The position numbers and the translations under genes were made by a program. The notes under the pieces are model-generated. The model did not search any database, was not told where the DNA came from, and saw only the letters and a program-made list of their open reading frames with translations. Of a stretch of 34,945 bases of DNA, positions 4,113 to 17,087 are shown piece after piece. This DNA is from Labilibaculum filiforme (GTDB lineage Bacteria; Bacteroidota; Bacteroidia; Bacteroidales; Marinifilaceae), in the NCBI RefSeq assembly GCF_002843315.1, contig NZ_MVDD01000029.1:1-34945 (forward strand). The letters run 5' to 3'. Each line of letters begins with the position of its first letter. The stretch's first letter is position 1.

Positions 4113-5291
4113 TTATAGAAACATACTTAAAAGAACATAGAGGTAATGGGCAAATGTACCCGCTATAATTCCTCCGGTTGTGTGCGAAAGTAAGGCTTTT
4201 GAGGTTAATTCACGAAAGTTGAGTGTGTCAAGCATGGCTGTGTGAGTACTTAAATATCCACTCCAGCACATTCCCATTGCTGTAAATACTGCAATCACAT
4301 TTCCATCAATAATTCCTTTCGCAATAAATGCTTTTACCAAGGACATTGCAGCTCCTACAGCTCCTAAAGAGGTAACCGGAAATGCAATCAATTCAGGATG
4401 TTTGAATCCAAACAATCCTTCGAATACCCACCAAATATGCCCGGCTAGTTCAGGTAGTAATGGCACGCCTTCGTAGGCAATTCCCTGATAGCCCAAAGTC
4501 ACATCTTTAGGACCAAAAGTCAGCATCATTACCATGGTCGAAATAATAAGTACACCAGGAATAATAGCTAAACCCAAATCAACTCCCGATTTACCTCCAT
4601 CTAAAATAGAGTTAAGGAAGCGCAGAAATACACTACCTTCCGATTTAAAGCTGATTTTTTCAGTTGCGCCTTTAATATGGGAGTCATTTCGTACCGGAAT
4701 GTGTCCTTTAATTAATCGTTGCATCATTCTTGTGGAAACTATTGCACCAACTAAAGCTCCTAAAAGACCAATTAATGCTGGTATAAATAGGTTTTCTTCA
4801 CTTCCAGGTATTCTTAAAGTGGACATGAAAGTAATTACAATTAATCCCATACCAAAAGCGGTCCCAAAATTGGTTAAAGAAACTAATTGATAGCTTTTAA
4901 AGTACTTACTGAAATTTTTATCATTTGCCAGACTAATAATAGCAGGATTATCGGATAAAAAAGTTAAAACTCCGGCTAATGCTGCAACTCCTGGTAGATT
5001 AAAAAGTGGTTTCATTAAAGGAGCAAGAATTTTCTCGAGTAAACGAACAACACCAAATTCAATTAGTAATTTACCAAGAGCTCCGGAAAGTACCGTTATT
5101 CCCATAATGTAAAATACGGTGTTCATTAGTAAGTCCCAAGCAGTATTCATAATGGTATTTAGCATATTTGCAACACCCATTTGGTGACCAACATATCCGA
5201 AAATTCCAAAAAAGGTAACTAGAAACATTACAGCTTCGTACCTTCGTTTCTTAAGGAAATCGGTCTCCTTAATCGACTTAATCGCGTTCAT
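4113..5291 (-). CDS. Gate-domain (nucleoside-recognition-like) membrane protein
   Basis: A 392-residue multi-pass membrane protein with about eight or nine hydrophobic segments. The sequence has the hallmarks of the Gate/nucleoside-recognition superfamily (SpmA, SpmB, YjiH and relatives): a small-residue-rich helix followed by a polar re-entrant-looking stretch FLSDNPAIISLANDKNFSKY, and a second half with VTSLGAVGAAMSLVKAFI and the GYLSTHTAMLDTL stretch. I recall close matches catalogued as CD0519/CD1768-family membrane proteins. The function is not established; transport of a small polar solute is the usual guess. It stands alone on the minus strand, convergent with mutS2 and divergent from recQ, and has its own promoter-like -7 box. 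A second, different Gate protein lies at 21317-22549. Confidence 0.7.
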   Translation of the reverse strand: MNAIKSIKETDFLKKRRYEAVMFLVTFFGIFGYVGHQMGVANMLNTIMNTAWDLLMNTVFYIMGITVLSGALGKLLIEFGVVRLLEKILAPLMKPLFNLPGVAALAGVLTFLSDNPAIISLANDKNFSKYFKSYQLVSLTNFGTAFGMGLIVITFMSTLRIPGSEENLFIPALIGLLGALVGAIVSTRMMQRLIKGHIPVRNDSHIKGATEKISFKSEGSVFLRFLNSILDGGKSGVDLGLAIIPGVLIISTMVMMLTFGPKDVTLGYQGIAYEGVPLLPELAGHIWWVFEGLFGFKHPELIAFPVTSLGAVGAAMSLVKAFIAKGIIDGNVIAVFTAMGMCWSGYLSTHTAMLDTLNFRELTSKALLSHTTGGIIAGTFAHYLYVLLSMFL

Positions 5292-9996: not shown

Positions 9997-10770
9997 ATGC
10001 TGATGATAAAGACTCTAATAGTTGATGATGAATTAAAAAGCCAATCAACTCTAAATAAGTTGTTAGAGATGTATTGCCCAGCCGTTGAAGTTATTGGTTT
10101 TGCTAATAATGTGGAGTCAGGAATAGAGGCAATCAATAAGTTAAAACCAGATTTGGTCTTTTTGGATATATCAATGCCAGATGGAGATGGATTTGAAGTT
10201 TTGGAGCGAGTTACCAATCGTAATTTTGAAGTGGTTTTTACTACTGCATTTAACGATTATGCAATTAAGGCTTTTCAGTTTGCTGCTTTACATTATTTAT
10301 TAAAGCCTATTAATTATATTGAACTACAAGCTGCTGTCGACCGTTATCAGCAGAATCATCAGGATATAGATTTAAATGAGAAGATAAAGATCTTGTGTGA
10401 TAGTTTAAGTAATCATCATCAAAAAATAATTCTGCCAACCTCAAATGGCCTTCGAATTGTAGAATTAAGTCAAGTGATTCGTTGCGAAGCGGATGGAAGT
10501 TATACCAACTTTTATTTGAACGATAATACAGTACTGATGGTTTCTAAGGTGCTATCTAATTTTGAAGATATATTGCCTGCAGAAATATTTTGTAGAGTTC
10601 ATAGCAAGCATTTGGTTAATTTAAATTACGTGAGTCAGTATATAAAAGGACGAGGCGGACGAATTATCTTAAGCTCAGGAAAAGAAGTCGAAGTTTCGGA
10701 AAGTAAGAAAAAAGATTTTTTAAAAAGACTCAAATATCTTGCTCATTCACTAAATAATGCGAAAAAATAA
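9997..10770 (+). CDS. LytTR-family response regulator
   Basis: A two-domain response regulator. The receiver (residues about 4-120) has the acidic pair D10/D11 in IVDDE, phospho-acceptor D57 in FLDISMPDGDG, a threonine in VVFTTA and the conserved lysine in LLKP. The LytTR DNA-binding domain (about 143-250) begins IILPTSNGLRIVE and contains RVHSKHLVNLNYV. No histidine kinase is adjacent, so it is an orphan regulator in this window. It is closely similar to the regulator at 13585-14376 (shared RCEAD, FCRVHSKHL, YIKGRGG or YVKGRGG, and EVSE.KKKDF), which indicates duplication. Between them lie a lipoprotein and a beta-barrel gene whose upstream region has repeats with LytTR-type spacing; these are the likely targets. 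The second ATG (MIKT) is an alternative start. Confidence 0.9.
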   Translation: MLMIKTLIVDDELKSQSTLNKLLEMYCPAVEVIGFANNVESGIEAINKLKPDLVFLDISMPDGDGFEVLERVTNRNFEVVFTTAFNDYAIKAFQFAALHYLLKPINYIELQAAVDRYQQNHQDIDLNEKIKILCDSLSNHHQKIILPTSNGLRIVELSQVIRCEADGSYTNFYLNDNTVLMVSKVLSNFEDILPAEIFCRVHSKHLVNLNYVSQYIKGRGGRIILSSGKEVEVSESKKKDFLKRLKYLAHSLNNAKK

Positions 10771-10799
10771 CACGTTTTATATTTAGTGATCTAACTATA

Positions 10800-10826
10800 G
10801 GAAGCTTTAAAGGCTTCCTTTTTTTT
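10800..10826 (+). terminator. Rho-independent terminator after the first LytTR gene
   Basis: GGAAGC (10800-10805) pairs with GCTTCC (10813-10818) around TTTAAAG, followed by a run of eight or more T. It isolates the regulator from the downstream lipoprotein operon. Confidence 0.85.
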
Positions 10827-10987
10827 ATGGAGTAAAATATTACAAAATAGTTACATAAAGTTATATAATGCCCATTTTTACTGGTCTAGCGAGGCATAAT
10901 AAGTTAATACATAATTATATTAGATGCTGATTTAATGTAAATTTTTCATTCTTAATAGAAGGTGGTGTTTGTGTCTTTATTCCTCAA

Positions 10988-11040
10988 TTTAACGCACTTG
11001 TATATTCTCCTGACGTAATTATTGGAATTTTCAACGCATT
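10988..11040 (+). promoter_or_regulatory. Three direct repeats with 21-bp period, candidate LytTR operator
   Basis: Three copies of a short motif, TTTAACGCACT, CCTGACGTAAT and TTCAACGCATT, start at 10988, 11009 and 11030. The shared ACG falls at 10992, 11013 and 11034, exactly 21 bp apart. On the opposite strand the outer two read TGCGTTAAA and TGCGTTGAA, close to the LytTR half-site pattern [TA][AC][CA]GTTN[AG][TG]. LytTR regulators usually bind direct repeats about two helical turns apart. The last repeat ends 14 bases upstream of the promoter's -33 TTG. The LytTR gene ends about 220 bp upstream. Binding is inferred. Confidence 0.55.
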
Positions 11041-11053
11041 TACATAATTTGTC

Positions 11054-11084
11054 TTGCTACTTTCATAATCATGTTTTACTTTTG
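11054..11084 (+). promoter_or_regulatory. Promoter of the lipoprotein/beta-barrel operon
   Basis: TTG at 11054-11056 and TACTTTTG at 11077-11084, separated by 20 bases, fit the Bacteroidota -33/-7 consensus well. The 81-base stretch to the ATG at 11166 would be the leader. It includes another TTAACGTA at 11131-11138. Confidence 0.65.
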
Positions 11085-11165
11085 CGATGAACAAAATAAA
11101 TATGGGTTGCTGGTTCAACCTGTTTCGTTCTTAACGTAAATTTTTAATGTAAAACCGAAAGTATT

Positions 11166-12584
11166 ATGAAGTTAAGATTTTTATCTCTAGGCTTATTAGC
11201 CTTAAGTTTTGTTGCTTGTGAGACTTATGAAGAGTCTGATTCTGTTGAGGCAATGCGTGTAGCAAGAACAGAGTATATTAAAGCTGAAACAGCTTACCAG
11301 AATGCACAAGTGGCATATAAAGAGGCAGAAACAGCAGGGAAATTAGTAGCGAATGCAGTTGCTGAGGCTCAAGGGTCAACTGCGATTGCAACGGCTCAAC
11401 TTGCATTAGATAAAGCAATAGCAGAACTTGCATCAACTAAAGCTATTCTTGAAGCTAACATCGCTAGTCAAAAACAAAATCTATTAAATTTAAAAGATGG
11501 TATGTTGACATCTGCTTATGGTGATTACACAACCGCTTATAATGATTGGAATACTACATCAGATGATTTATTGACAGCACAAAATGATTTAGTTAGTGCA
11601 AATTTCACATTGGCAAGTGCTGGTATGGCTAGTGTAAATTTTAAAGCTACAGAGACTGTGGCTAAAAATTTAGTTGTTACTACTCAAACTGCTGAATTGG
11701 CTGAATTGAATTCTCAATTAGCTGCTTATGAAGCATTGCAAGCTTCTAATGACTGGACTTCTGTTGAAGGACAAGTAGTTGCTAAGGAATTAGAAAAAGC
11801 AGAATTGAATGCAGAGATTGCTAATCTTTCTGCAAGTATCGCTCGTGCGGTAACAAAAAAAGATGTTGCATATGCTGCATTAGAACAATGGAATACAGAT
11901 TACGATCTTAGTGCTCCAATTGATGCTGATAAAGGAATCATTGAGATGGCTGCTGCATTTAATGCTCATAGAGATGTTTTGGTAAATGATACAATTGCTC
12001 CATCTTCACAATTAGATGCTGCAAAAACAATTTTAGATGCTTCAGATGCAACTGACGGTGGTTATAATGTTCTTAAAGAGAATTATAACAATGCATTAGC
12101 TAACTATAACGAGGCAATTGCTAAGCTTAATGCTTATAATTTTACAGTGGCAAATGCGCAATTAAGTTCTTTGAATGCTGTTTATGTTTCTAGTGTAACT
12201 AGTATTAAACCATTAAGCGATCAGCAAGCAGTACTTGGTGCTAAATTAGGCGTATTATCAGCTGATATCATTAAACTTAAAGCATTACAATTTGTTATTG
12301 ATACAGATGTTACAGAAGGAACAGTAGATGTATCAGACAAATTGGCTGACATGATCACATCAACTAAAGAGGATATTGTTGATGTAGAAGATGCTATTGC
12401 TAAAGCTAAGGATGTACTTGCAAAATTAGAGGCAGGTAATTATACTCAGGCTGAATCTGTTAGAGATGCAGAACTTGCTATTTCAATATTGAATACTAAA
12501 ATTGCTAAGCTTACTGCAGAACTTGAAGTTGCTAAAACAAAATTAGACACAGCAGAAGCTGCATACAAAGCATTACTAAATTAG
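11166..12584 (+). CDS. Alanine-rich coiled-coil lipoprotein
   Basis: A 472-residue lipoprotein: signal residues 1-18 with lipobox FVAC, then C19 followed by ETYEESDS. The mature part is almost wholly alpha-helical and rich in Ala, Leu, Lys, Asp and Asn. Its long heptad-like coiled coils (about 30-115, 165-245, 285-345, 370-470) are broken by a less helical region around 250-285 (DYDLSAPIDADKG). No catalytic motif is visible. It should be attached to the outer or inner membrane by lipid with a rod-like periplasmic or surface body. It lies between a predicted LytTR operator and promoter and a beta-barrel gene 68 bp downstream, suggesting a structural or adaptor partnership with that barrel. I do not recognise a named family. 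Codons are strongly biased to GCT, GCA and TTA. Confidence 0.75.
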   Translation: MKLRFLSLGLLALSFVACETYEESDSVEAMRVARTEYIKAETAYQNAQVAYKEAETAGKLVANAVAEAQGSTAIATAQLALDKAIAELASTKAILEANIASQKQNLLNLKDGMLTSAYGDYTTAYNDWNTTSDDLLTAQNDLVSANFTLASAGMASVNFKATETVAKNLVVTTQTAELAELNSQLAAYEALQASNDWTSVEGQVVAKELEKAELNAEIANLSASIARAVTKKDVAYAALEQWNTDYDLSAPIDADKGIIEMAAAFNAHRDVLVNDTIAPSSQLDAAKTILDASDATDGGYNVLKENYNNALANYNEAIAKLNAYNFTVANAQLSSLNAVYVSSVTSIKPLSDQQAVLGAKLGVLSADIIKLKALQFVIDTDVTEGTVDVSDKLADMITSTKEDIVDVEDAIAKAKDVLAKLEAGNYTQAESVRDAELAISILNTKIAKLTAELEVAKTKLDTAEAAYKALLN

Positions 12585-12652: not shown

Positions 12653-13513
12653 ATGTGTAGAAAAATTATTTCTTTGATTTCCCTATCACTTGTATTGTGT
12701 ACTGCTGTATATGCTCAAGGTAAAATGGAATTGTTGCCAAAAAAAGGCAGTTTCACCGTTGCTTTGGTATTGGGTGATAATGATGTTACTGACATTAATC
12801 CAGCTGTATTACCTAATTATTCTATTTATGATAGTTATGGTGCAACTTATGTTGAAAGATTAGGTGCTGATGATAATTTCTCAGTAAAAGAACCAGCTTC
12901 ATTAACGAATATGGCAGGAATTTCCTTAAATTATTTCTTAAGTGACAAGATTTCTTTAAACCTTTTTGGTTCATATGGTTACAAAACTAGCCCCGGAGAA
13001 GAGGCTTATACCGGAGTAGCGCCATTAAAGGATTCTGATAACATGAATATCGAGGGATCTGGAATTCCAGCAATTCAAGGAAGTCCAGAAACAGAAAATC
13101 ATAAGCTTTATCTGTCGGCAGGTGCTGATTATCATTTCAAATTTGACCAGGATGTGAGAGCATTAAAGAATACTGATTTTTATTTAGGAGGTCGCTTTAA
13201 TTTTATGTACGAGCGTCTAGAGAAAACTCAGATTTCTTGGTTAATATCAAAAGATGGAGATTTAAGTCTTAATTCTGGAGCAGAAGGCACAGCAACCGCA
13301 GAAGCTATTGGTTTTGGTGGATCATTGGTAGGTGGAGTGGATTACTATTTTACTCAGTCCTTATTTATTGGATTGGAAGTGAATGTATTTAATTTCATGT
13401 ATCAACATACCGAAATCGTTCAAATGCCAGGTGTTCAAGGAGCAGATCAAACAACAACTTTTATGAATGCAATGTCTTATCCAAGACTTAAAATAGGATT
13501 TAAGATATTTTAG
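12653..13513 (+). CDS. Outer-membrane beta-barrel protein
   Basis: A 286-residue exported protein with a signal peptide (residues about 1-21, cleavage after VYA before Q). The mature chain alternates polar and hydrophobic residues in amphipathic strands (for example GSFTVALVLG, ISLNLFGSYGY, KLYLSAGADYHF, DFYLGGRFNFMYERL, LFIGLEVNVFNFMY) and ends YPRLKIGFKIF, with a terminal Phe typical of BAM substrates. This fits an eight- to ten-strand outer-membrane barrel of the porin/OmpW-like type. No TonB or plug domain is present, and the cargo or role is unknown. It follows the coiled-coil lipoprotein in the same direction after an intercistronic hairpin and ends at a terminator, so the two form a two-gene operon. 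Confidence 0.8.
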   Translation: MCRKIISLISLSLVLCTAVYAQGKMELLPKKGSFTVALVLGDNDVTDINPAVLPNYSIYDSYGATYVERLGADDNFSVKEPASLTNMAGISLNYFLSDKISLNLFGSYGYKTSPGEEAYTGVAPLKDSDNMNIEGSGIPAIQGSPETENHKLYLSAGADYHFKFDQDVRALKNTDFYLGGRFNFMYERLEKTQISWLISKDGDLSLNSGAEGTATAEAIGFGGSLVGGVDYYFTQSLFIGLEVNVFNFMYQHTEIVQMPGVQGADQTTTFMNAMSYPRLKIGFKIF

Positions 13514-13544: not shown

Positions 13545-13584
13545 TTCCCGGTCTTACTCTGTGAGATCGGGAAAATTTTGTTTT
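13545..13584 (+). terminator. Rho-independent terminator after the beta-barrel gene
   Basis: TTCCCGGTCT (13545-13554) pairs with AGATCGGGAA (13564-13573) over 10 bp (one G-T), followed by AATTTTGTTTT. It ends at the ATG of the next gene, so transcripts of the second LytTR gene would come from read-through or from a start very close to the ATG. Confidence 0.85.
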
Positions 13585-14376
13585 ATGGATACGAAAAATA
13601 CAATTTCAGCAATTATTGTTGATGGCAAAACAAAAAATATTAATATCATTAGAAAGCTGCTGTCGGTTCATTGCTTAGATGTTGATGTTATTGGTACTAG
13701 TTCATCGGCAAGCGATATGATGAATCTAATTCGCTTGCAAAGTCCAGACGTAATGTTTCTGGATTCGGATTTAGTTTCAGATGAATTTTTGAAGTTTATT
13801 GGAAGTGAAAAATGCACAACCGAACTTGTTTTTATGGTTGAGAGTAAGGATTTTGCAATTAAAGCTTTCGAATATTCGGCCTTATATTGTATCCAAAAAC
13901 CATTTTGTAGTAGCGAGTTTATAGAGTCAATCAATAGATTAAAGCAAAAAAAAACATTTTATTCTTTTAAAAGATTAGAGAGTATTTACAGAGAAAAAAA
14001 AGGAAGCGATGGCCGGATAATGTTGCCTGACCTTCTCGGTTTTCGATTGGTAAATGTAAGTCAAATAGTGCGTTGTGAAGCAGATACTTGTTACACAAAC
14101 GTATACTTAGACGATGGAGAAAAAATAGTATCTTCAAAACCACTCTGGGGGTTTGTGGAAGTTTTACCATTGCACTTATTTTGCAGAGTGCATAGTAAAC
14201 ACCTTATCAATCTAAACTATCTTCAGCAATATGTGAAAGGAAGAGGTGGCATCGTCATCTTGCTTGATGGAACTACTGTTGAGGTTTCGGAAAGAAAGAA
14301 AAAGGATTTTATAGAACAATTAGCCTTTTTCGGATATTCATTTCTTGAATGCCATCAAAGAACTAACGGTTATTAA
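13585..14376 (+). CDS. LytTR regulator with degenerate receiver domain
   Basis: A paralogue of the LytTR regulator at 9997-10770. I place the start at ATG 13585 (MDTKNT). The GTG at 13561 lies inside the terminator hairpin. The C-terminal LytTR domain (residues about 147-255) is well kept and shares RCEAD, FCRVHSKHL, GRGG and the EVSE.KKKDF segment with its paralogue. The N-terminal receiver is eroded: the acidic pair is reduced to D13 followed by G14 (VDGK instead of VDDE); the phospho-acceptor D60 survives in FLDSD, but the usual MPxxDG loop is replaced by LVSDEF; and the switch Thr region reads FMVES. The KP lysine remains. It may work without phosphorylation or as a partner or antagonist of the intact regulator. 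The next gene is a STAND NTPase 158 bp downstream. Confidence 0.85.
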   Translation: MDTKNTISAIIVDGKTKNINIIRKLLSVHCLDVDVIGTSSSASDMMNLIRLQSPDVMFLDSDLVSDEFLKFIGSEKCTTELVFMVESKDFAIKAFEYSALYCIQKPFCSSEFIESINRLKQKKTFYSFKRLESIYREKKGSDGRIMLPDLLGFRLVNVSQIVRCEADTCYTNVYLDDGEKIVSSKPLWGFVEVLPLHLFCRVHSKHLINLNYLQQYVKGRGGIVILLDGTTVEVSERKKKDFIEQLAFFGYSFLECHQRTNGY

Positions 14377-14466
14377 TTGGCATTTTTTCAGATTTCCGAT
14401 CACGCTATTATAAGCCGAAACAACGTAGATATAAATTTATCATGCCTGAAGATAAATTGTGGATTG

Positions 14467-14534: not shown

Positions 14535-17087
14535 ATGATTGAAAGGCTAAAATCGGAAGTTTTAAAAAAATTTGGTTCACAGCTAATGTATACAAAAGCT
14601 TGTAAGATTTTAGCTGATGAAATTTGTAAGGAGACGGACTATCGAATAAGTCCTACTACGATTCGTCGAATCTTTGGTTTTTTAAAAAGCAACGCCAAGC
14701 CGGCAAAATTTACTTTAAACACATTAGCGATTTACATTGGTTATGATTCCTGGGACAATTTTTCCTGTCTACAGAAAGATGTTACAAAAACTCCAAGTAA
14801 ACAGAAGCAAAAGTGGAGCGATTTATACGAAAAATCTCTCGCTTTAAGTAAGGAAACTTTTAATTTAATTGCCGGGCAGTCTGGTATTCCTTTTCATTCG
14901 GTTGTCAGTCGCTCGCATGCCGAGGAAAGAATTAGTAGCTTTTTGAAGTCCTCGAAAATGGCGACTGGTTTTGTTGCCCCCGGAGGTTTTGGTAAATCAA
15001 GCATGTTAGCAAAATGGTTCGAGAAAAACTGGATTAAAAAGCAATCTGATGATGTTATTTTTTATCTGAATGCTTCTTTCATGTTAAATTTTTTGAATAA
15101 TGATTTCCGCTTAGATCATTGGTTGGAGAGTCAGTTAGATTTTACTGAGAAGGATACCTTAAAATATTTTCTTGATACTCCGGAAGCTTGCGAAGCACGT
15201 ATTATTTTTGTTATTGATGCTCTGGATGAAATAACTTACGACAATATTAAATTAGAGCGACTTTTTCTTCAGTTAAAACAATTTATATCGAATTATAAGG
15301 AATCAAATCAAGTTAAATTAATAATAACTTCCCGTTGCTCTACTTGGGAGAAGTTTGCTTTACCTTTTGTAATAAAAGGGAATGCGATACAAAATAGTTG
15401 GTTCGAATTGGGTTTAAAGATAGATGCTCAGGACCATCAGAATTTATTTCCTTTAACCGATGACGAAATTCAATATGTAATTGATCGTACAATAAATAAT
15501 GATTTCTCCTCCAAATTTTCAGTTAATGAGCTTTCCTCTAGTCAGAAGGAAATGGTTTCTAATCCTTTCTTTTTGGAATTGTTTATAAAACTGTACAGTC
15601 CCGATAAGCAATATGCCTATTATGAAGGGCCAGAACTTTTAAATGAATTTTTACGAAATAAAATATTTTATTCTCGGTTTTCTGAGGAGAAAATGGATAT
15701 TCTATATGGGATTTTGAAATTAATCGAGCATGGGAAAAAAGGGATTGCGGCTAAAAAAATGGAATTGCGCGATGCATACCCTATTCATCTTAAAACCGGC
15801 GGAAATTATTTTCATGCCTACGAAGAATTAATTTCTTATGGCTTATTAAGTGAATTTATTACCATAAACGAACACAATAGCTATTGTAAGTACGTTAAAA
15901 TTACCAACGAGAAATTATTAGAGACCTTAATTGGGACGCATCTAATTCAAAAAAATGGGGTAGTTGATTTTCAGTTGATAAAGAGAGTAGAAGAGGATTA
16001 TACTGGTTTTGAGATGAAAAACCGGCTAATTAGCTTTTTGTATTCAAGTGCTTTTTATAGTGGAAATCATTTAGAGCTAAAAAACTTTTTTGAATTGAAT
16101 GATGAAACACTTTCCAATAAGGAGGTGATCAATTCAATACTTAATTCTTTTATTGATTTAGATGCTCAGAAAATAGAATTAATGGAGCATTTTGTGACTC
16201 AGGAAAGAGCTGAAAAGTTTCTATTTGGTAATTTTCCTGATATCTATAATCTGAGTAAAGGGAATAAAGTTATTCTAGAAATATTTGCCCGAAAAGGGAA
16301 ATCTAAAAGTGTACGAGTAAAATCATTATCAGTACTTTTATTGAGTTCTGTTTTCACATTGAATATAGAGGATGCTCAGAAATATTATGAGTATTTAAAT
16401 AAAGAGGAAATAGATTCGTCATGTACAGGTTTTGATATTTCTATTCGACTTGCCAGTCGGTTGATTTACAACTATTTCGTTTGTGAAGAATCCAATGAAA
16501 TAGAAATATTGAAAATGTTTTATTATCGGGAGATGGCTTATAACCAGATGCGTGACGATCAGGGAGCGCTAAATGGTGAGTTTGAGTTGATTCTTGGTAT
16601 GGTATTAATTTATATGAAATCTTTTCATAAGCTTATTCAATTAATTGATGATGTAGAGCATTTGTATAAAAAACCGAAGGCAAAAAAGTCTAATTTAAAT
16701 TACAGCATTTTGCAATGTTATAAACTATCGGCACAACATAGTTTGGGAATGGAGTTAGATGCTTCTCAAATTGACTTTTTACGATCCTGCGAAAGCGATA
16801 TTGTAGCTTCAAAAAATTATTTTCTACAGATATATTACCACTCATTTCTTATTTCTGTGCAATTTGCAGAGGGAAATAGACCCGAGGTCGAGAGGCATTT
16901 TAATTTGGCATTAAAAATTTGTGAAGATGCTAATTACGGATTGTGCTCTGCTGGAATTCTGAAAAAAATGGCTAAATATTATAATGAATGGGGCGAGAAA
17001 ACGAAAGAAAGTATTTGTTTGTTCGAAGAAAAAGAAATTTTAAAGGATGTAAATACAGTATTCGATATGGAAACTCTTTTTGTTTAA
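14535..17087 (+). CDS. STAND/NACHT-like NTPase with N-terminal helical (HTH-like) domain and TPR-like C-terminus
   Basis: An 850-residue P-loop protein of STAND type. N-terminal residues about 5-80 form a compact helical domain (KACKILADEICKETDYRIS, TTIRRIFGF, a TLAIYIGYDSWDNF ending) that I associate with Bacteroidota STAND proteins and which may bind DNA. The NTPase core has Walker A APGGFGKSS with K154, Walker B IIFVIDALDE (D228, D231, E232) and a sensor-like IITSR at 263-267. The region after about 430 is helical with TPR-like pairs at 620-840, suited to ligand or protein sensing. STAND proteins are switch ATPases used in transcription control (MalT type) and in phage defence. No toxic effector domain is visible here. 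It follows two orphan LytTR regulators and precedes the giant repeat protein, with a terminator after it. A regulatory role is the simplest reading, but defence is not excluded. Confidence 0.7.
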   Translation: MIERLKSEVLKKFGSQLMYTKACKILADEICKETDYRISPTTIRRIFGFLKSNAKPAKFTLNTLAIYIGYDSWDNFSCLQKDVTKTPSKQKQKWSDLYEKSLALSKETFNLIAGQSGIPFHSVVSRSHAEERISSFLKSSKMATGFVAPGGFGKSSMLAKWFEKNWIKKQSDDVIFYLNASFMLNFLNNDFRLDHWLESQLDFTEKDTLKYFLDTPEACEARIIFVIDALDEITYDNIKLERLFLQLKQFISNYKESNQVKLIITSRCSTWEKFALPFVIKGNAIQNSWFELGLKIDAQDHQNLFPLTDDEIQYVIDRTINNDFSSKFSVNELSSSQKEMVSNPFFLELFIKLYSPDKQYAYYEGPELLNEFLRNKIFYSRFSEEKMDILYGILKLIEHGKKGIAAKKMELRDAYPIHLKTGGNYFHAYEELISYGLLSEFITINEHNSYCKYVKITNEKLLETLIGTHLIQKNGVVDFQLIKRVEEDYTGFEMKNRLISFLYSSAFYSGNHLELKNFFELNDETLSNKEVINSILNSFIDLDAQKIELMEHFVTQERAEKFLFGNFPDIYNLSKGNKVILEIFARKGKSKSVRVKSLSVLLLSSVFTLNIEDAQKYYEYLNKEEIDSSCTGFDISIRLASRLIYNYFVCEESNEIEILKMFYYREMAYNQMRDDQGALNGEFELILGMVLIYMKSFHKLIQLIDDVEHLYKKPKAKKSNLNYSILQCYKLSAQHSLGMELDASQIDFLRSCESDIVASKNYFLQIYYHSFLISVQFAEGNRPEVERHFNLALKICEDANYGLCSAGILKKMAKYYNEWGEKTKESICLFEEKEILKDVNTVFDMETLFV

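Follow-up and report, generated by a model that had tools for sequence, protein, structure and literature searches.

In the accessible excerpts of the literature, LytTR regulators recognise tandem operators whose repeats are 9-11 nt long, with 11-13 nt between neighbours (PMC4847170). The operators of AgrA and YpdB, and likewise those of HdrR and BrsR, are described in the available portions of three papers as direct repeats of ~10 nt with an 11-nt spacer (PMC4847170, PMC4227749, PMC6193735). In AgrA, three residues of the FFRCHNS segment contact the DNA (PMC4227749, excerpt), and YpdB uses a high-affinity and then a low-affinity site in sequence (PMC4847170, excerpt). Operators with three repeats are also described: in the accessible part of PMC11347149, RcoM1 has three direct 8-bp repeats, evenly spaced by gaps of 12-13 bp, and CoxC requires all three repeats.

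For the Bacteroidota, the literature that we found, partly as excerpts, holds only predicted repeats of Bacteroides LytTR systems. In B. thetaiotaomicron and B. ovatus, these repeats have an 11-bp spacer and lie 11 bp from the -33 element, which is followed after 19 bp by TATCTTTG (PMC6193735, available portion). The promoter consensus of Bacteroides is given as TTTG / TAnnTTTG in the accessible part of PMC7366714.

Here we analyse a candidate LytTR operator (operator A) of Labilibaculum filiforme. The window is the whole stretch of 34,945 nucleotides that was studied, an entire contig (C29) of a 5.2-Mb genome. On the forward strand, the genes run in the order peptidase (assigned by eye), RR1, lipoprotein, OmpA_like beta-barrel, RR2, NACHT-like and a long TPR protein (17272). 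The gap of 395 bp between RR1 and the lipoprotein gene contains operator A (Table 1). As with AgrA, YpdB, HdrR and BrsR, a LytTR regulator is found together with direct repeats, here just upstream of a predicted promoter. Unlike theirs, operator A has three sites, an ACGYAnTTRY half-site and a predicted promoter of the Bacteroidota -33/-7 type.

Table 1 Features of the RR1 locus and of related sites elsewhere in the genome (window positions unless a contig is named)
Feature	Position	Strand	Sequence or remark
RR1, receiver-LytTR response regulator	9997..10770	+	proposed binder
Terminator-like hairpin	10799..10819	+	separates RR1 from operon and array
Operator A, site 1	10992..11001	+	ACGCACTTGT
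Operator A, site 2	11013..11022	+	ACGTAATTAT
Operator A, site 3	11034..11043	+	ACGCATTTAC
-33-like element	11054..11057	+	TTGC, 10 bp past operator A site 3
-7-like element	11077..11084	+	TACTTTTG, 19 bp past TTGC
Lipoprotein gene	11166..12584	+	first of proposed target operon; signal and Cys by eye; no Pfam family
Beta-barrel gene	12653..13513	+	OmpA_like (PF16961)
RR2, LytTR protein with decayed receiver	13561..14376	+	RR1 relative
Operator B	14402..14432	+	ACGCTATTAT-N11-ACGTAGATAT; upstream of NACHT-like gene
NACHT-like gene	14535..17087	+
Operator C	upstream of ORF of 49-50 codons		unlinked; three sites in own genome
Conserved 50-codon ORF behind operator C	C8:63166-63315 (L206 1501-1650)
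Operator D	C7:138025-138055 (L100)		two sites; upstream of single-receiver gene, gltX-like gene after (by eye)

Architecture of the candidate operator and probable sign of regulation

The initial annotation described three ACG-centred repeats exactly 21 bp apart in front of a strong promoter; the repeats are present, and so is a promoter-like pair. The ACG triplets lie at 10992, 11013 and 11034 (spacings of 21 and 21), each opening a ten-base unit that fits ACGYANTTRY, with spacers of 11 nt in both intervals. Copies 1 and 3 form a repeat 42 bp apart with 76% identity over 17 nt. Operator A thus has the tandem geometry of LytTR operators, with 10-nt units and 11-nt spacers, and 21 is also the spacing preferred by a model trained without the window (see below). 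Downstream, the predicted promoter TTGC-19 bp-TACTTTTG is close to the Bacteroides consensus; a promoter of the -33/-7 type lies outside the coverage of the sigma-70 promoter scan. The counterparts of the three Bacteroides distances are 11, 10 and 19.

A weaker middle site had also been suggested. This holds for the score: with a matrix built from 23 sites at 14 loci outside the genus, and chosen via a pattern read from the window, sites 1, 2 and 3 reach 9.0, 4.8 and 10.1, respectively. It does not hold for conservation, since the ACG core is kept most often at site 2 (six of seven aligned operons). According to the same annotation, the units would resemble the LytTR half-site on the reverse strand, and three unequal sites could allow binding to be graded or antagonistic.

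We regard it as quite likely, from comparative sequence evidence, that RR1, bound to the three-site operator A just upstream of the predicted TTGC-19-TACTTTTG promoter, is the activator of the lipoprotein/beta-barrel operon. One LytTR domain would occupy each site, all on the same face of the DNA and two helical turns apart. Phosphorylation of RR1, presumably by a kinase encoded elsewhere, would lead to cooperative filling of neighbouring sites; Pfam found no kinase among the six window proteins scanned. The RR1 copy nearest to the promoter, 10 bp before the -33 element, could then aid RNA polymerase, and the lipoprotein, beta-barrel and RR2 genes would be switched on. The order of high- and low-affinity sites described for YpdB in the excerpt cited above may serve as a model for the unequal sites of operator A.

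By analogy with known systems, activation is the likeliest sign. RR1 might instead repress from the array, or block the promoter in its unphosphorylated form, and the accessible part of PMC11347149 provides a precedent, with CoxC repressing from a three-repeat LytTR operator. However, the CoxC repeats overlap the -35 element whereas operator A leaves 10 bp between its last site and the -33-like element, a position typical of activators in the available portions of PMC6193735 and PMC11347149. We therefore hold repression by RR1 to be unlikely.

Conservation and linkage to RR1

The gap upstream of the lipoprotein gene was aligned with those of six related operons (seven with the window), a comparison proposed in the initial annotation. 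The sites and their 21-bp spacing are retained, and the operator reading withstands the comparison. No gap interrupts the 21-bp register in any of the seven operons. The ACG core is retained in four of seven operons at site 1 and five of seven at site 3, and TACATAAT at site 3 (11041-11048) is present in all seven. In two of the six relatives (L033 and L037), the operator A double scores below 12 with a matrix of 34 sites, which includes the operator C sites of four other genomes and whose sites were likewise chosen via the pattern.

Two further conserved segments flank the array. Upstream of it, a CATAAT...CATAA block (10895-10914) has both CATAA elements in 7/7 aligned operons, a conservation for which LytTR sites do not account. 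Directly past the -7-like box, TGAACAAAATA (11088-11098) is exact in six of the seven operons and has one change in the seventh; it is possibly a start-site or early-transcript element.

Since the seven aligned operons share descent, and close relatives are not independent of one another, the comparison was extended outside the genus. A search of 59 genomes found RR1 orthologues with 53% identity or more in 18, within a single family; four others of the 59, from other families, have matches of 41-50%. The closest named relatives of RR1 belong to Labilibaculum and other Marinifilaceae. Among the 21 named RR1 loci (L120-L140), 20 are assessable, L124 being excluded as it has no next gene. A tandem pair with at least 15 of 18 matches to ACGYANTTRY is found in all 20, a score reached by at most 2% of 200 shuffles at each locus. 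With this cut-off, all 21 sequences, counting the window, have a pair at spacing 21, against 0-5 of 21 at each of the other spacings between 12 and 33; on the reverse strand, three of 21 sequences reach it. These counts carry two dependencies that only the window-blind model avoids: the pattern derives from the window, and the cut-off was set once the scores were known.

The gene that follows RR1 varies. The NACHT-like gene, judged by protein start, is next in 14 of the 20 assessable loci, and where it directly follows RR1 the tandem sites lie between the two genes, some within ~10 bases of the RR1 stop. The array accompanies RR1 even where the NACHT-like gene is next, which favours RR1 as its main binder, and RR1 itself adjoins operator A. 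Because relatives keep the repeats next to this regulator gene, and at the same 21-bp interval, the repeats look like a real RR1 site.

A different binder could be any of the 13 other LytTR proteins encoded in the genome, or a factor of another kind such as the NACHT-like protein. The linkage to RR1 is circumstantial and the NACHT-like gene is also a common neighbour. Yet operator A precedes the lipoprotein gene, away from the NACHT-like gene, the length and spacing of its repeats match LytTR operators, and the best pairs of the 23-site matrix near the 13 other LytTR genes reach only 2.3-12.9. This alternative appears quite improbable.

RR2 as a relative of RR1

A tree was built from 25 proteins: the 15 LytTR matches found in the own genome, seven of the 18 aligned RR1 rows and three RR2 relatives. 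It groups RR2, on a long branch, with RR1 (100/99). The LytTR parts of the two proteins agree at 60 of 115 residues and their receivers at 38 of 118, and ten other LytTR proteins that were compared have 19-28 of ~100 residues in common with RR1. The recognition motif FCRVHSK, which occupies the position of the AgrA FFRCHNS segment, occurs only in RR1 and RR2 among the 15 LytTR matches of the genome. A search against solved structures gave, among the matches listed (60 of 163), three alignments that all fall within the receiver, so a mapping of the DNA contacts was not obtained.

A phosphorylatable receiver needs an acidic pair, the phospho-accepting aspartate, a threonine or serine and a lysine. 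RR2 lacks this set: in four RR2 receivers inspected by eye, the second acidic residue is lost in all and the lysine is retained in all, the phospho-Asp is replaced by serine in one and the threonine position is altered in three. Its receiver scores 29.4 bits with Pfam, below 30.2.

The initial annotation assigned the operator to one or both flanking LytTR regulators. The RR1 part of this claim is supported, with RR1 in all seven operons, and RR2 fits less well, being present in four of the seven. Judged from sequence, RR2 is probably not the main binder of operator A because it is divergent, its receiver is decayed and it is absent from three of seven operons; competition or feedback at operator A is possible. 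Could the array chiefly be the operator of RR2, through which RR2 controls its own operon? The recognition motif is identical to that of RR1 and the RR2 gene sits at the operon end, but three of seven site-bearing operons do not have RR2 and the sites accompany RR1 also where the NACHT-like gene is next, which makes an RR2 operator very improbable.

With RR1 as the main binder, a further and rather doubtful role may be considered for RR2. As a duplicate of RR1 that has kept the motif without the acidic pocket, it might occupy part of the array independently of phosphorylation and act as a brake or latch of the regulon. RR2 would then be encoded in an operon controlled by RR1, and the regulon would include the NACHT-like protein and the ~50-codon ORF.

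Repeat models and chance expectation

Matrices from a window-derived pattern are circular, and for this reason a blind model was added. It describes a two-copy repeat and was trained by expectation-maximisation. The training set left out the window and consisted of 11 of the 14 stretches that follow RR1 orthologues outside the genus, near-identical ones having been thinned; spacings of 12-33 were searched with 120 starts each. Spacing 21 is best, at 184.4, with the runner-up among the other 21 spacings at 125.4, and the unit found starts with ACGTATTC. Applied to both strands of the window (69,830 positions), the blind matrix places 11013 first (22.2), 10992 second (20.8) and 14402, the start of operator B, third (14.5), with the fourth-ranked position at 9.7. 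Its agreement with the pattern-derived matrices raises confidence in the RR1-operator reading.

The 23-site matrix finds the same three top places in the window by a narrow margin (13.5-14.9 versus 13.4 at 5141). With the 34-site matrix, the window doubles score 14.8-15.8 against 11.5 for the next position, which overlaps operator B, and maxima at six neighbouring spacings are 8.8-12.0. As background we used 59 loci that hold more remote relatives of RR1 (L141-L199, of which L152 is a Marinifilum fragment), with 1.16 million strand positions. The operator A triple reaches 22.6 versus a background maximum of 13.3. One background double reaches 18.0 and exceeds the window doubles, so a double alone is inconclusive.

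Chance expectation was estimated with 2000 dinucleotide shuffles of the region 10771-11165. Six of ten columns are identical across the three copies, a value matched by 2.55% of shuffles at spacing 21 (p 0.026) and by 41% when spacings of 12-32 were allowed (p 0.41). Taken by themselves, the repeats of the window do not reach significance once all these spacings are allowed, and single-sequence statistics were dropped as proof. The repeats are weak on their own in this test, yet they become significant because of the comparison with relatives. That they are functionless chance repeats of AT-rich DNA, as the value of 0.41 in the window alone would allow, is hardly credible, given that the outside-genus blind matrix ranks the two pairs first and second of all positions and that the 21-bp register is preserved throughout the aligned operons.

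Probable targets beyond the operon

Operators B and C suggest that the target set of RR1 is probably wider than the lipoprotein/beta-barrel operon. Going by their sequence, operator B, for the NACHT-like gene, and operator C, for the small ORF, are probably used by RR1 as well, which would place these genes in a shared regulon. Of 59 genomes, 15 carry the operator C ORF. Each of them has RR1 at the level of at least 53% identity, and the ORF is absent from all 41 genomes without such an RR1. A 21-bp pair lies upstream in 14 of the 15, the miss being the most distant. Neither Pfam nor NCBIfam has a family that matches the ORF.

As a regulon member, operator D is a weak lead. It is found in ten of 16 loci, in closer relatives only, and is missing in G005 and five more distant ones. 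With the 34-site matrix it ranks second in its own locus (13.6 versus 16.0); in the loci of four relatives that were examined it is second in three and first in one.

Genome-wide pattern searches gave no enrichment over the reversed control, either in the search for a regulon (518 versus 582) or for the two-site pattern in the own genome with at most two mismatches (18 versus 25) or at most three (178 versus 275). Sixteen own-genome matches were examined: ORFs of 110 codons or more contain 11 of them, and the rest are operators B, C and D, L098 and L105. L098 (C3:419647) and L105 (C16:73828), outside ORFs of this length, are each located directly before a gene start. An exact extra match in contig C13 was dropped, as it falls inside a TPR-like gene (by eye).

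A defence function of the NACHT-like gene was considered and set aside. PADLOC gave no match among four proteins, and the NCBIfam model EruA scores 20.2 bits against a cut-off of 1000, a weak similarity to an antiphage NACHT protein.

Relation to known operators and significance

Tandem and three-repeat LytTR operators are already known. The initial annotation presented three sites as unusual, a view that gives way to the precedents of RcoM1 and CoxC in the accessible part of PMC11347149, with which operator A shares three evenly spaced repeats. The systems differ in several respects: CoxC is a repressor with an MHYT sensor domain, whereas RR1 has a receiver domain; RcoM1 targets CO oxidation genes; and the half-sites are distinct, with TTCNNGCA / TTNNNGCN for the RcoM1/CoxC type and the units of Table 1 for operator A. 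The Bacteroides repeats, in the available portion of their source, belong to pairs of a LytTR regulator and a membrane protein, are listed as autoregulatory and read TCCGG..., in contrast to ACGYA... here. No operator for RR1 was found in the literature covered, which was partly accessible and excluded most subscription papers; the operator of RR1 looks undescribed.

These results give a LytTR response regulator of the Bacteroidota a candidate regulon and a binding motif open to testing, and they connect it with a NACHT-like neighbour and with an ORF outside the Pfam and NCBIfam families. RR1 and the receiver-decayed RR2 also form a natural pair in which to study how two LytTR proteins may share or contest one three-site operator.
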